DNA of 54,410 nt from SAR324 cluster bacterium (GTDB taxonomy: Bacteria; SAR324; NAC60-12), in NCBI GenBank assembly GCA_015232315.1, contig JADFZZ010000003.1, positions 286,275 through 340,684 of the forward strand, given 5' to 3'. This document shows positions 4,305-13,700 of the stretch, piece after piece. Numbering within the stretch: position 1 is the stretch's first letter; each line of letters begins with the position of its first letter. A program made the position numbers and the translations under genes. The notes under the pieces were generated by a model. It ran no database searches and had not been told where the DNA came from. It worked only from the letters and a program-made list of their open reading frames with translations.

Positions 4305-4901
4305 ATGAACCGTTTTTCCACCTTGTGTGACTCCTACAATTCCTATCTGACAGATGCTGCAAACTATCATGAAGATTGTGCCAGAATGCTGGATAAACTC
4401 CGTTATATGTTTCTGGCTTATCTGGAATGCGATCAGGATGCGGTGATCTTCCGCTCTGCCAAGCCCGCTGAACAGGGTGCCAAAAATGAGCCGCCCCCAC
4501 CTCCTGTGGTTGGTCCGCAGGCTAAACCTCTCATGAGTTTTGGGGATGGCGGATTCTGGAATGTTTTGCTGGTGATTTTTCTACCTCAATCCACCGAGCC
4601 TCAAAAAAAAGGCACCGTGTGGTTTCGTTTGAATATCAAGAAAAGCAAACTGGATCAGGATTTTTTTACAATTAAAATTATCGCGCCCCCCCTTGACAGC
4701 ACGCCCATTGAAAGGAAAATCTCACAAGATTCATTTGACAAGACAGGGAAGGAACTATGTGACTGGATGTATCATGAGGCTGTGCATCTGTATCAGAATT
4801 CGTTTCAAACCCTGCTTGCGGAAGGAACCCAACGAATCGGTTTTCAGATGCAGGAAATTGAAGAAGCGCTTCCACAAAAACTGGAACACCTCATGTCATA
4901 A
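4305..4901 (+). CDS. hypothetical cytoplasmic protein
   Basis: 198 residues from ATG 4305, chosen because AGGAC lies about 8 bp upstream; an in-frame TTG at 4278 is less likely. The N-terminal third is helical and acidic (NYHEDCARMLDKLRYMFLAYLE). A Pro-rich linker follows (EPPPPPVVGPQAKP, residues about 65-80), then an alpha/beta region and a C-terminal helix (ELCDWMYHEAVHLYQNSFQTL). There is no signal peptide or membrane segment. The HEAVHLYQ string superficially resembles a zinc-protease helix but lacks the HExxH spacing. I do not recognise a family. The stop overlaps the convergent RCC1 gene by 6 bp. Confidence 0.65.
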   Translation: MNRFSTLCDSYNSYLTDAANYHEDCARMLDKLRYMFLAYLECDQDAVIFRSAKPAEQGAKNEPPPPPVVGPQAKPLMSFGDGGFWNVLLVIFLPQSTEPQKKGTVWFRLNIKKSKLDQDFFTIKIIAPPLDSTPIERKISQDSFDKTGKELCDWMYHEAVHLYQNSFQTLLAEGTQRIGFQMQEIEEALPQKLEHLMS

Positions 4902-7010
4902 TCCAGTCACACTGACGGGCGTGTTTTGCTGGCTGGTTTGTCCATTTCCCAACCGCCCCTGAGCGCCTGCTCCCCAGCATTGAATCCCGCCACTGGAAAG
5001 CACCGCACAGGTGTGAGAGTCTCCAGCCTCAACATGAACCGCGGAAGTTATACCTGATACCGTTACCGGGATATTGCTGGAACTGGCGATGCCATCACCC
5101 AATTGACCTGAGGTCCCATCCCCCCAGCATTTGACAAGACTGTCACTGGTTCTGGCACAACTGTGCTTATCTCCCAAAGATAACTGGATGGCATTGGTCA
5201 GGTTCAAAACATCCACTGGACTATTCTGCTGAGTGTTGGCTCCATTTCCCAACTGGCCTGAACTTCCATCTCCCCAGCATTTGACCAAACCTGTCAACAA
5301 CAGCGCGCAACTGTGATTGTTTCCTACCGCGATTTGTTTGCTATCAGGCAGATCGGTCACAGCGACAGGCACGCCTGAAAGACTGGCATTGCCATTTCCC
5401 AGTTGCCCTGATGAACCCTGTCCCCAGCACCTGACAAGTCCGCTACTCAACAAGGCACACGCATGATCAAATCCCGCGGAAATCTGTGATGCGCTGGTAA
5501 TGCCGCTGACTGTCACGGCCGTGGATGAATTGCTTAAATTGCTGTCTCCCAGTTGCCCTGATCCGCCGGCACCCCAGCATTGAACAGAACCTGAAGAGAG
5601 AACGGCGCAAGTATGAGTGCTTCCTCCTGAAATATCAGCCACTCCTGTAACATTGCTAACAGCTACCGGGGTGTATTGAGAAACAGAAAGACCATTCCCC
5701 AATTGTCCATTCCCGCCTTCGCCCCAGCATTTTGCTGTTCCAGAACTGAGTCTGGCACAGGCATGAGATGCTCCTGTTCCGAGGGATGAGGCTGATGTGA
5801 TGTCCAGAACCTGGATGGGCGTTGTGAGAAACGTGGTTCCGCCATATCCCAGTTGTCCGGAACCACTGTTTCCCCAGCATTTGACATAACCCGTGTTCAA
5901 CAGCGCGCAGGAAAAGCTGCTTCCAAGGGATAGGATCGGAAGTTGATAACTGATAGACGCACTGGCCGCGGAAGTCATGTTGTCAGCAGCATCCTTGAAC
6001 CAGGCATAGACCGTGAGGGTGCCATTGCCTGACAGCAGGTATGAAACATCTGTAGAAAATGAAGTTGATTCTGTGGTGCTGACCCATCCGGCAGACGAAC
6101 CCGAAGGAGTCGTTGAGGATGTTGAAATGTAATAGGCCGTTATACCGATATTGTCCGTTGCTGACAGCGTTAGCGTGACTGCCAGATCGGTAGTTGTAGA
6201 ACTGCCTTTATTAATGGAAATAGTCGGATTTGTGGGTGACGTGGTATCGGGAATGTACTGGATATTGTCGGAGGCAACCTTGGAAACATTTCCGGCTGCA
6301 TCACTGAACCATGCATAAACACGCTGGGAACCATTGACATTCAGCGTGTAAGAGATTGTTGTAGAAAAATGAATGGCTGAGGTGACAGATACCCACCCTG
6401 ATTTTGTGATGGCTGGAGTGTCCGGACTTTCAGAAATATAATAACCTGTAACACCCACATCATCACTGGCCGTCAAGGTCAGGGTTACCCGGAGCGAATT
6501 GGTGGTTTCATTACCAGCGTTGATAGACACATAGGGAGTGTTGGGAGCTGTCAGATCAGTACTGACACCCACTCCACCAGCAGTACTGCCCACTGAACTG
6601 CTTCCACCTTCAACCACTGTTACCACCAATTTAGTCCTGTCTTTTTTAGTACTGCTACCTCTATCTGACATTTTGGATTTGATTGAAGGTTCAGTTTTGA
6701 CAACTATTTCATACTCAAAACTCCCAACAACCTGCTTGGTGAGTCGGCAGAGATATTTTCCATTGCAATCCACAACAGGCAGACTGTTTTCCCTCCAGAT
6801 GATGTCATCATAGACCGACTCTGAAGCATCCAGAATATATTCCTGTCCAACTGTGATCGTATCGCCTGGAGAAACACTTAGAACCGCTTTTGGGGGTTCA
6901 TCATTTTCACATCCGGCAACAATCAAAATCAGAATCCATAAACAGATTTTCAACCATGTCCTGTAGCTGACTTTGAATTTTTCTGAAGTCTTTGTTCCTG
7001 GGTGTAGCAT
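4896..7010 (-). CDS. RCC1-repeat (seven-bladed beta-propeller) lipoprotein
   Basis: 704 residues. Start set at ATG 7010 because GTAGGAG lies 5-7 bp upstream; the longer in-frame extension to 7091 runs over repeat DNA and would bury the signal peptide. A hydrophobic signal ends in a lipobox (LIVAGC). A PKD/Ig-like segment follows (residues about 20-120), then two copies of a roughly 95-residue Ig-like module containing NPTISINKGSSTTT or its variant, ATDNIGITAYYIS and VYAWFKDAADN. The C-terminal half holds seven RCC1 units of about 50 residues, each with CWG..xxGQLG (for example VKCWGNSGSGQLGYG and VRCWGQGSSGQLGNG), matching a closed seven-blade propeller. Likely an outer-membrane-anchored extracellular binding protein; the ligand is unknown. 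Confidence 0.88.
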   Translation of the reverse strand: MLHPGTKTSEKFKVSYRTWLKICLWILILIVAGCENDEPPKAVLSVSPGDTITVGQEYILDASESVYDDIIWRENSLPVVDCNGKYLCRLTKQVVGSFEYEIVVKTEPSIKSKMSDRGSSTKKDRTKLVVTVVEGGSSSVGSTAGGVGVSTDLTAPNTPYVSINAGNETTNSLRVTLTLTASDDVGVTGYYISESPDTPAITKSGWVSVTSAIHFSTTISYTLNVNGSQRVYAWFSDAAGNVSKVASDNIQYIPDTTSPTNPTISINKGSSTTTDLAVTLTLSATDNIGITAYYISTSSTTPSGSSAGWVSTTESTSFSTDVSYLLSGNGTLTVYAWFKDAADNMTSAASASISYQLPILSLGSSFSCALLNTGYVKCWGNSGSGQLGYGGTTFLTTPIQVLDITSASSLGTGASHACARLSSGTAKCWGEGGNGQLGNGLSVSQYTPVAVSNVTGVADISGGSTHTCAVLSSGSVQCWGAGGSGQLGDSNLSNSSTAVTVSGITSASQISAGFDHACALLSSGLVRCWGQGSSGQLGNGNASLSGVPVAVTDLPDSKQIAVGNNHSCALLLTGLVKCWGDGSSGQLGNGANTQQNSPVDVLNLTNAIQLSLGDKHSCARTSDSLVKCWGDGTSGQLGDGIASSSNIPVTVSGITSAVHVEAGDSHTCAVLSSGGIQCWGAGAQGRLGNGQTSQQNTPVSVTGL

Positions 7011-7035
7011 GGTCACTCCTACAGAAGTTAATATT

Positions 7036-7074
7036 CCAGGGCGATTGCCGGAAGTATACATACCAGAATTGTTG
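7036..7074 (+). repeat. dispersed short repeat, copy B
   Basis: About 39 bp starting CCAGGGCGATTGCCGGAAGT and ending AGAATTGTTG. It is partner to 4105-4142 and sits just upstream of the chosen start of the RCC1 lipoprotein, which supports treating this stretch as non-coding. Confidence 0.5.
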
Positions 7075-7172
7075 CCATTCCTAAAGAACATAGAGTCAAA
7101 AAGCTGAAATTTGGTTTGTCATCAATTTTCAATTAAGAACCGCAAAGAATAACGGCTCAAAATCAACAGCGT

Positions 7173-9359: not shown

Positions 9360-10199
9360 ATGCGAACCATTATAAAAACAGTTAAGGGACAAGCCACTTC
9401 AGACGGGGCTGGCGTTCGGCTGATGCGCAGTATTGGAACGCCTCAATTGAGCGATCTGGATCCTTTTCTCATGCTGGATGAATTCAAATCAGATAACCCC
9501 AATGATTATATCGCGGGTTTTCCACCCCATCCGCATCGTGGCTTTGAGACGGTCACCTATATGCTTGCCGGTTCCATGGAACATCAGGATAATGCCGGCA
9601 ACAAAGGCTTTCTTACGGCTGGAAGTGTGCAATGGATGACGGCTGGCAGAGGAATTGTCCATTCTGAAATGCCCAAACAGGAAAACGGGCTCATGTGGGG
9701 CTTTCAGCTCTGGGTCAATCTGCCGGCAAAGCAGAAAATGACAGCACCACGCTATCAGGACATTCCACCGGAAAATATTCCTGAAATTCATCAGCCGGAT
9801 GGTTGTAAAATCCGTGTGATCGCAGGTCACGCACTGGGCAAAACAGGCCCAGTTGAAGGCATCGTGACGCAACCCTTGTATCTGGATGTTACGATTCCGG
9901 CCAATGGTCAGTTTACCCACGATTTACCTGAAGACCATCAGGCCTTTGTGTATGTTTTTGAAGGGCAGGGGAATATGGGTGTGACCCCTGAAAACAATGG
10001 AACACCGCTTGGCATCTCAACTCTGGGTGTTTTGAGCCAGGGCACAGAATTCAAGGTCAGCACAGACAGTGGGACGCGCTATATCCTGCTGGCGGCCAAG
10101 CCTGTTAAGGAGCCGATTGTGAAATATGGTCCCTTTGTAATGAACACCTTTCAGGAAATTGAACAGGCCGTCCGTGATTATCAACGCGGACTATTTTAG
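9360..10199 (+). CDS. pirin family protein (bicupin)
   Basis: 279 residues, the normal length for bacterial pirins. The N-terminal cupin carries FPPHPHRGFETVTYML and the later HSEMP, which supply the His and Glu ligands that bind one metal ion (usually Fe) in characterised pirins, some of which have quercetin 2,3-dioxygenase activity. The segment SVQWMTAGRGIVHSE is the family hallmark. The C-terminal cupin (residues about 170-279) is more divergent, as usual. Cytosolic. No strong ribosome binding site is seen before ATG 9360. The selenoprotein gene begins 23 bp after the stop, so the two may be co-transcribed, which would fit a redox-stress role; this is inference. Confidence 0.92.
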   Translation: MRTIIKTVKGQATSDGAGVRLMRSIGTPQLSDLDPFLMLDEFKSDNPNDYIAGFPPHPHRGFETVTYMLAGSMEHQDNAGNKGFLTAGSVQWMTAGRGIVHSEMPKQENGLMWGFQLWVNLPAKQKMTAPRYQDIPPENIPEIHQPDGCKIRVIAGHALGKTGPVEGIVTQPLYLDVTIPANGQFTHDLPEDHQAFVYVFEGQGNMGVTPENNGTPLGISTLGVLSQGTEFKVSTDSGTRYILLAAKPVKEPIVKYGPFVMNTFQEIEQAVRDYQRGLF

Positions 10200-10222
10200 T
10201 TGAACTCTCAGCAGGAGGAAAC

Positions 10223-10753
10223 ATGAGCGCCAAACAATTGCAGGAACTGGGAAAATGTACCGTTCTTGATGAACACAATAACAGCATTGTTCTTGGAGAT
10301 GTCTGGAAAAACCAGCGTACTGTTCTGGTTTTTGTCAGGCATTTCGGTTGACTGCTTTGCCGTCGGCAGGTTGCTGACCTTCAGGAGCGAAAACAGGATT
10401 TTGAACAAAAACAGGCAAAACTGGTAGTGATTGGAAATGGTCCCCATTTTTTCATTCAGGGTTTTAGAGAGGATGTGGGCTATGATGGCATCATTTACAC
10501 CGATCCCAGTCTGAAATCGTATCAGGTGTTGAATTTCAAACGGGATCTCAAATCGTTTCTGGGACTTAAATCCGTTAAAGAAAGCCTGCGTGCGCTCACA
10601 ACGGGTCACATGCAGCAAAAAACCCAGGGGGATGCCCTGCAACAGGGGGGTGTTCTGGTGATCAGTCCTCAGGGAACGATTCCCTATCTTCATGTCAATC
10701 AGGAAGCTGGTGACCATGCTCCCATCGAGCAAATCCTCAAAGCCTGCTCATAA
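10223..10753 (+). CDS. selenoprotein: thioredoxin-fold AhpC/TSA_2 (PRXL2-like) protein with in-frame TGA (Sec43)
   Basis: Reading through TGA at 10349-10351 gives 176 residues from ATG 10223, which has an ideal GGAGGAAAC ribosome binding site, to TAA 10753. The TGA is codon 43 within VRHFG-U-LLCRRQV. It replaces the first Cys of the redox CxxC that follows the first beta-strand in AhpC/TSA_2 and PRXL2-type thioredoxin-fold proteins. Reading frame, codon use and domain continue smoothly on both sides (VLVFV before; KLVVIGNG, GDALQQGGVLVISPQG and the C-terminal HAPIEQIL after). Selenocysteine is therefore far more likely than a nonsense mutation. A candidate bacterial SECIS lies at 10368-10380 (AGGT, loop TGCTG, ACCT), with its loop G 22 nt after the TGA. 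Likely a cytosolic peroxidase or redox enzyme. Standard gene callers would report only a truncated product from 10427. Confidence 0.85.
10368..10380 (+). promoter_or_regulatory. candidate bSECIS stem-loop
   Basis: A four-base-pair stem AGGT/ACCT with loop TGCTG lies just downstream of the in-frame TGA. The loop G is within the distance range usual for bacterial SECIS elements. A second small hairpin (TGCC, loop GTC, GGCA) overlaps closer to the TGA. Bacterial SECIS elements are weakly conserved, so this call is tentative. Confidence 0.35.
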
Positions 10754-10760
10754 AAAATAT

Positions 10761-10779
10761 CCCCGGTTTAATTCCGGGG
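10761..10779 (+). terminator. hairpin after selenoprotein gene
   Basis: CCCCGG and CCGGGG form a six-bp GC stem with loop TTTAATT, 8 bp after the stop codon. The downstream sequence lacks a strong T-run, so termination efficiency is uncertain; it could also be a short palindromic repeat. Confidence 0.5.
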
Positions 10780-10799: not shown

Positions 10800-13700
10800 A
10801 TGAACCAAAGCTGGCAGAAATACACAACATATCTATTGCCATGGCTGACGTTAGGCTGGATCTTTCTGGCTATGTTCTGGGTGTATCCATCAGAAATGGA
10901 CAGAATATTTGTGTATGAATACACCCGAAATTATCCTCGCGCGATTCATGATTTATCCATTTGGATCGCTCAGGATCCTTCCTCCCGAAAAATGGATATA
11001 CTGGCCCGTTTGTATGTGAAATCCGGCAAATTGCAGAATGCGGAAGATGTTTATCGTGAGGCGGATATTCCGCTGGAGATTCTGGACATGCTACTGACCT
11101 CGTATCGTGCCCGATCGCACTATGAGGATGTCCGACGATTGCTACTGGTCAAACAGGAATTGAGGCCCCTGGACAAAGCTGTCCCCCGTGAACTTACCAT
11201 TTTGTTTCAACAACTGAAGGATTACCCCTCGATGATCGTTCAACTGGAAAAACTGATTGCCCTTGATCCGTCTGATCCCGAACCTTACCGGGAATTGGGC
11301 GATTTGTATTTTCTGACAGAACAGGATGAAAAAGGAATGGCCGCCTATCATAAACGGGCAGAATTATTGAACGAGATGAAAACCTGGCGGGATCTGGCAC
11401 AGGTTTATCTCTACAAGAAAATGACAGAACAGGGGTTGACCCTGATGCAGACCATTGCCGAACAATACAATCATCCCAACCTCTGGAAAGAACTGGGAGA
11501 ACTTTATGCCTATCATGGTTACCCCGAAAAATCGCTTGAGGCCTATCTCCACAGAGCACGTTTGACCAACAGGCTGGAAGACTGGAAACGCGTGATGGAT
11601 GTTTATCTCAATCAGGATAAGAAAGTCGAAGGTCTGGCGCTGTATGAAACTGTCATCAAGCCGCTGGAACAACCCGCGTTGTGGAAAGAACTGGGTGATT
11701 TGTATGTGTATTACGACATGGAGGAAAAAGCCTTTGACGCTTATAAAAAACGGGCTGAACTTCTCGAAACCATAGTGGGCTGGCAGGATCTGGCAAATCT
11801 GTATCTTTATAAACAACGCATTCCGGAAGGCATGGCCATCCATCAACGTCTGACCGAAGCAGAAAATACACCTGACGTATGGAAAACCCTGGGTGATCTT
11901 TATCTGTATTACGGCATGACCGAAGAAGGTCTGGCTTCCTACAGACACCGTGCGGAACTTATGAATTCATTCCAGGGATGGAAAGCTCTGGCACAACAGC
12001 ATTTTGCCCTGAAAAAGATCCCTGAAGGTCTCGCCATTTACCGGGAACAGGCTGAAAAGAACAATGATGCCGCCATCTGGAACGAACTGGCCAGTCTCTA
12101 TGTGTATTACGGAATGGAACAAGAGATGTTCGCGCTCTACACCCAACTGGCTCGTCAGTCGAATACCATTGATGCCTGGAAACAACTGGCACAATTGTAT
12201 TTCCTCAGGAAACAGATTGATGAAGGCTTAAAAATTTATCAACAAACAGCGGAGAGCTTCAAAACTCCGGCCTTATGGAAAGAAACGGCTGATCTGTATT
12301 TTTATTACGACCGCGTGGATGATGGTTTTCTGGCACAGGCCCGTTACACAGAAAGTCAGGACAGCATTGAGGCATGGAAACAACTGGCGCAACTTTACAT
12401 CTATAAAAAACGGGAGAAAGAAGGATTACAGGTTTATTATCTGCTGGCACACAATCATCAGATACCGGCACTATGGAAAGAGGTGGCAAACCTCTATCTG
12501 TATTATGGCTATAAAGAGGAAGGTCTCTCCGCTTATGAACGCTATGTGGCCCTTGAAACCACGCCTGAAACCAGGGAAAATCTTGCCTTGCTGTATCTGG
12601 CGCATGGAAAATCCAGGAAGGGCGTTTCCCTGTATCTGCAATTGGCCCGTGAATTCAATACCCCTGAATTATGGCAGGAACTGGCCAACATCTATTTTTC
12701 AAAAAACATGGAACAATCCGGATTGAAAGCCATGGAAAATGCCAATCAGAAACGTCCCGAGCTGGCAACAACTCTCCGTCTTGCCGCAAGGATGGAATAT
12801 GACAAACAACTGGCTGGTGCGGAAAACTATTTTATTCAGGCCATTTCCCTGTATCCCGAACCACGGAATGGCGAAATGGAATTGATTAAATTTTATCTCA
12901 GGCAAGGCATGCTGGAAAAAGCGCATGACCGCATGTTATCGCTGGAGGAACAGGGGCTTCTGACCGGAGAAGATCAACTGCTGGCGCTGAAAATCTATTT
13001 CTGGGTCAATAATCAGGATGCAGGAACCAGAATGCTTTCCCGGATTCCCGTAGAGCAACTTCCTCCCGAAAATCTGGATCTGTATTACAAACTGGCGGTG
13101 TCCCATGGTCTGTTTGATAAAGCCATCGCCATCCTGGATTATCTGGAACTTCATGCCCCCTCTCCTGAGCTATGGAAAAAACGGGTATTGCTTGTCAGAC
13201 AACGCGGATATCCTGAACAGGCTGTACAAATCATACAAAATCAAATCAGTCACTATGGCGAATCCCTGGAATTGCTGGAAGCGTTGTATGACACCTATGA
13301 TTCCCTGCATGACCCTGAACGGGTTTCTGTGTTGCATCGTATTCTGGTGAATTATCCGGACAATCAGCAATGGATGATCAAAGCACTCAGCATCTACACG
13401 TTTCGGCAGGAATATGGAGAGGGTTTTGAAGTTTTGCGACAACGCTATGAACGGCAGGCAAATAGTGACACACTCAAGGGGATGCTCAAACTGGCCATCA
13501 AGGGCGGATTGGCCGTTGAAGCGCAAACAATTCTGGACCGTGTCCCTGAAGCGCAACAAGACGCGGAAGTGGAGTCCATGGCTGTTGATATTGGCTACCT
13601 GTCGGGTGATCTTCCCTGGGTGACCCGTTGGCTGGAACGCAGATTCGCAAGAACTTCCAACGCGAGTGACCTAGATGCGCTTATTTTGCTTTATCGAACG

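Follow-up and report, generated by a model that had tools for sequence, protein, structure and literature searches.

A predicted UxxC selenoprotein of the SelL/PRXL2-like type in a SAR324 cluster bacterium

The window analysed here, a stretch of 54,410 nucleotides from the genome of a SAR324 cluster bacterium (a draft assembly of 88 contigs), includes a frame of 176 residues that runs through a single in-frame TGA at codon 43 (Table 1). The motif around this codon is FVRHFGULLCRRQ, with U in the place of the TGA. A preliminary description of this DNA had reported a strong ribosome binding site ahead of the gene and had expected ordinary annotation to produce a fragment of 108 residues; both are found, the fragment being exactly what a conventional caller returns. 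The window was also searched for further frames that read through a TGA, and only unconvincing ones turned up. A pirin gene lies upstream, and a TPR-repeat gene is located downstream, at 10800. Behind the gene, a terminator-like hairpin (CCCCGG-loop-CCGGGG, 10761–10779, minus strand) is accompanied by a run of T on the minus strand. An antisense frame of 174 residues (10208–10732, minus strand) covers nearly the whole gene; it was rejected as a candidate, being broken in the closest relatives and having no match in Pfam. Elsewhere in the window, positions 4896–7091 of the minus strand encode a protein of 731 residues with many RCC1 repeats, a type of repeat better known from eukaryotes.

Table 1. 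Positions of the gene, its neighbour and the associated sequence elements in the window.
Feature	Position	Strand	Remarks
Shine-Dalgarno sequence AGGAGG	10213..10218	+	4 nt before ATG 10223; strong; from the sequence
Predicted selenoprotein gene, SelL-related / AhpC-TSA_2 (PRXL2-like)	10223..10753	+	176 aa plus TAA
TGA codon 43, predicted to be read as selenocysteine, first position of UxxC	10349..10351	+	
TGC codon 46, second Cys of UxxC	10358..10360	+	invariant in 25/25 sequences of alignment A4
108-aa fragment with GTG start	10427..10753	+	output of an ORF caller that stops at TGA
Pirin gene	9360..10199	+	23 nt upstream of the predicted selenoprotein gene
bSECIS-like hairpin GTCGGCA-GGT-TGCTGAC	10362..10378	+	a longer fold pairs 10353-10358 with 10384-10389

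Both halves of the frame, on either side of the TGA, belong to one thioredoxin-like domain, and the continuity across the TGA that had been claimed is borne out by three profiles. PF00578 matches residues 13–97, spanning the TGA (33.2 bits against a cut-off of 26), and PF13911 (AhpC-TSA_2) matches residues 52–160 of the read-through protein (60 bits against a cut-off of 27, E = 3.7e-16). NF040769, described as “SelL-related redox protein”, matches almost the entire chain, with residues 10–174 aligned to positions 4–172 of the 173 in the profile when U is read as C (E = 5.3e-33); the score of 114.1 bits is just under the curated cut-off of 120 bits. NF040769 also matches each of the 25 sequences in alignment A4. 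A sequence search of the PDB leads to human prostamide/prostaglandin F synthase PRXL2B (5.1e-16), and U43 and C46 align with its CxxC motif (C44/C47). An AlphaFold model of the predicted selenoprotein, built from 25 sequences, has a pLDDT of 96 and a pTM of 0.91, and its top structural match in the PDB is the C44S/C47S form of PRXL2B (E = 2.3e-14, TM 0.81/0.87); Bcp-type peroxiredoxins and ResA rank next. With PF13911 above its cut-off and a thioredoxin fold in the model, the protein is assigned to the AhpC-TSA_2/PRXL2-like group.

Alignment of the homologues at residue 43, which the preliminary description had proposed as a check, shows solely Sec or Cys at this position. TGA is found at exactly the same column in 12 genomes from nine families, comprising the window genome, three others of its own family at ~50% identity, and one from each of eight further families; Cys is present there in 17 other aligned homologues, with one match (L147), not alignable at the site, kept outside both counts. 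The UxxC motif is common to all 12 TGA cases. The in-frame UGA is aligned with the redox Cys of the homologues, the arrangement by which a bacterial selenoprotein is recognised. SelB scores above its cut-off in 12 of 12 TGA genomes, compared to 10 of the 21 matching genomes tested that lack the TGA form (Fisher p = 0.002); one TGA genome (G082), with an assembly 86% complete, has SelB and gave no match to SelA. In the closest pair, G004/G010, dN/dS (NG86) is ~0.12 before the TGA and ~0.11 after it, values that are rough, with dS > 1. By this sequence-based measure, selection acts on both sides of the TGA in the relatives. A plasmid collection searched for relatives gave no match, and an initial scan of genome contigs for relatives found nothing; the 80 loci from a second contig scan are Cys forms by design, because the scan pattern contained the Cys codon, and give no estimate of frequency. 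In the tree, the Sec forms are clustered without making up one clade, and the best tree has four state changes, two of them forced by well-supported branches, with many forks unresolved. The nearest Cys homologue, from a Deltaproteobacteria MAG (G108, locus L046), is 41% identical, and no SelB over the cut-off was found in that genome. The pattern of the tree is consistent with repeated exchange of Sec and Cys, either direction being possible.

The folding energy of the whole segment gave no significance against synonymous shuffles, and the test was therefore redone for a specific hairpin with the published bSECIS limits, which comprise a loop of 3–9 nt, an upper stem of 4–16 bp, G in the first two loop positions, a distance of 16–37 nt from the UGA, and an energy of −7.5 kcal/mol or lower (PMC13188914). 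As the preliminary description had anticipated, a qualifying hairpin follows the TGA of the window; it consists of a 7-bp stem (10362–10368/10372–10378) and the loop GGU (10369–10371), 17 nt after the TGA, and lies within all of these limits, although its energy, −7.7 kcal/mol, is close to the boundary. Hairpins within the limits are present in 12 of 12 TGA forms and 0 of 17 Cys forms (p = 1.9e-8, a guide rather than an exact value, given shared ancestry), and the combined p from synonymous shuffles is 6e-11 for these related sequences. Taken alone, the window hairpin is weaker, with 5.2% of the synonymous shuffles equally good.

The layout of the hairpin differs between groups of TGA forms. 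Members of the window clade carry GGU or AGGUN as the loop, 16–17 nt after the UGA, and CGTCGGCAGGT is identical in all four genomes, though Arg has six codons; with four sequences and zero double changes, covariation is uninformative in this clade. In seven other TGA forms the stem encloses an AGUU loop, 25 nt after the UGA. In this subgroup, three of the seven stem pairs have changed on both sides in a compensatory manner, with a covariation score higher than in 500 out of 500 shuffles and in all slid controls. The seven homologues with the AGUU layout (L128, L129, L130, L132, L133, L136, and L143) share the invariant codons CAG-TTG, which suggests that the RNA element may fix the protein residues Gln-Leu.

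The machinery for selenocysteine insertion, which had been named as a point to be verified through selA, selB, selC, and selD, is present in the genome in all four parts, each family having been searched one by one. The tRNA-Sec, with the anticodon TCA, scores 62.4 bits against the Rfam cut-off of 47 bits; every weaker match falls short of that cut-off and belongs to an ordinary tRNA for Ser, Leu, Tyr, or Trp. SelA scores 495 bits, SelB 386.6 bits, and SelD 363.3 bits. The SelD locus (L024:1501–2424, corresponding to G000:C28:50700–51623, minus strand) has its own in-frame TGA, in CGUAAK; SelD is apparently itself a selenoprotein, and this is thus a second, independent TGA of the genome that is apparently used as Sec.

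The machinery, the Sec and Cys homologues, and the bSECIS-like hairpin agree with the core claim of the preliminary description, the reading of UGA as Sec in a protein of the AhpC-TSA_2/PRXL2 type, and we consider it very likely that the product of the gene is a selenoprotein of 176 residues with a thioredoxin fold and a UxxC motif, the UGA at codon 43 being decoded as Sec. A TGA that is one base from TGC or TGT, in a draft genome, might also have arisen by accident in what was once a Cys gene, whether as a nonsense mutation, a sequencing error, or a sign of a decaying pseudogene, but the identical TGA in 11 other genomes refutes this in practice; with selection on both sides of the TGA in relatives and SECIS-like hairpins only in TGA forms, an accident is extremely improbable. 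The continuation of the frame beyond the TGA would be expected as well if the UGA were read as some other amino acid, such as Trp in a changed code, or if an ordinary stop were read through. However, homologues without the TGA have Cys only, never Trp, at the site, two relatives of the TGA form terminate their own gene with TGA, and tRNA-Sec, SelA, SelB, and SelD are all encoded in the genome, leaving such a reading with hardly any probability.

It is just as hard to believe that the real product is only the 108-residue downstream fragment or the 174-residue antisense frame. Both frames are mechanically open, yet the fragment is devoid of the active site and of the N-terminal strands of the fold, and in the three relatives nearest to the window gene the antisense frame contains 2, 4, and 12 stops. 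A different kind of proposal, compatible with a selenoprotein, is that the protein and the adjacent pirin form a specific pair in oxidative stress. The closeness of the pirin gene, on the same strand, favours this idea, but we regard it as unlikely, with zero pirin matches within ~1.5 kb of any relative examined (tblastn, E ≤ 1e-5). Relatives of neither the pirin nor the TPR-repeat gene were found by tblastn in the flanks of any homologous locus; the functional partnership that had been proposed is thus not upheld, and the adjacency would be a local arrangement at most. The two genes are possibly co-transcribed in the window.

For the predicted selenoprotein, the decoding step would consist of the binding of SelB to the hairpin and the delivery of Sec-tRNA(Sec) to the UGA, yielding the UxxC protein. 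The preliminary description had placed the TGA at a resolving Cys; the replacement of a Cys of CxxC stands, but the residue concerned is the first one, aligned with C44 of PRXL2B and probably nucleophilic, so that Sec would be attacking rather than resolving. By analogy with PRXL2/SelL-type proteins, the U43 selenolate may attack an oxidised substrate, either a peroxide or a disulfide, C46 would then form a selenenylsulfide with U43, and thioredoxin or a similar reductant would reset the U43/C46 pair. The same analogy makes oxidoreductase or peroxidase activity the most likely class, and a reasonably probable one.

At this locus, a conserved enzyme is cut short by standard gene calling and its active site is lost. 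The analysis adds a well-supported UxxC set in which Sec and Cys forms are intermixed in the tree and matched by the presence or absence of SECIS elements, and which is usable for testing both Sec/Cys exchange and the constraint that a coding-region SECIS imposes on the protein. The general view of selenocysteine biology is unchanged.

The vertebrate SelU family is, alongside PRXL2B, a close known system. Human PRXL2B (9us9, 9usa) is the best match in the PDB by both fold and sequence, but it has Cys where the window protein has Sec, and their identity is 27% or less. The NF040769 family, which NCBI names after SelL, is matched over the full length, whereas the window protein scores below the family cut-off and carries its Sec solely at the first position of the motif. 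In PMC2397514, which cites Shchedrina et al. 2007, SelL is a selenoprotein with a diselenide UxxU motif that occurs in fish, invertebrates, and marine bacteria. Bacterial Prx-like selenoproteins are already on record. Within what the SelL passages of PMC2397514 and PMC3316567 and the NCBIfam name convey, SelL is likewise a peroxiredoxin-like redox protein with Sec in its redox motif, but it has two Sec two residues apart, whereas the window protein, with one TGA and UxxC, differs from SelL proper.

Another catalogued relative is a peroxiredoxin-like selenoprotein of cd02970/PF13911 (Table 1 of PMC13188914; PMC9312934), which shares the domain family and the presence of Sec in a bacterial protein; its motif is UxxS, while all 12 TGA forms here have UxxC. 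The UxxC forms in Table 1 of PMC13188914 fall under PF00578 and PF08534, and the Sec peroxiredoxins of that paper carry TxxU, unlike the window protein. This 2026 table has no entry for a UxxC form of the PF13911 domain as such; a new subfamily is not claimed, because there could be some overlap with its UxxC entries under PF00578 and PF08534. We can tentatively speculate, at somewhat less than even chance, that the sequences represent a bacterial subfamily of SelL/PRXL2-like selenoproteins with a UxxC motif, uncatalogued as such, whose members come from nine or more families and use two SECIS layouts that have shaped the protein; the layout at 25 nt would fix the codons CAG-TTG (Gln-Leu) in seven of seven members, and that at 16–17 nt would accompany Arg replacing the usual Glu after CR. 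As it stands, the window protein is a well-founded addition to a kind of selenoprotein that is already known.
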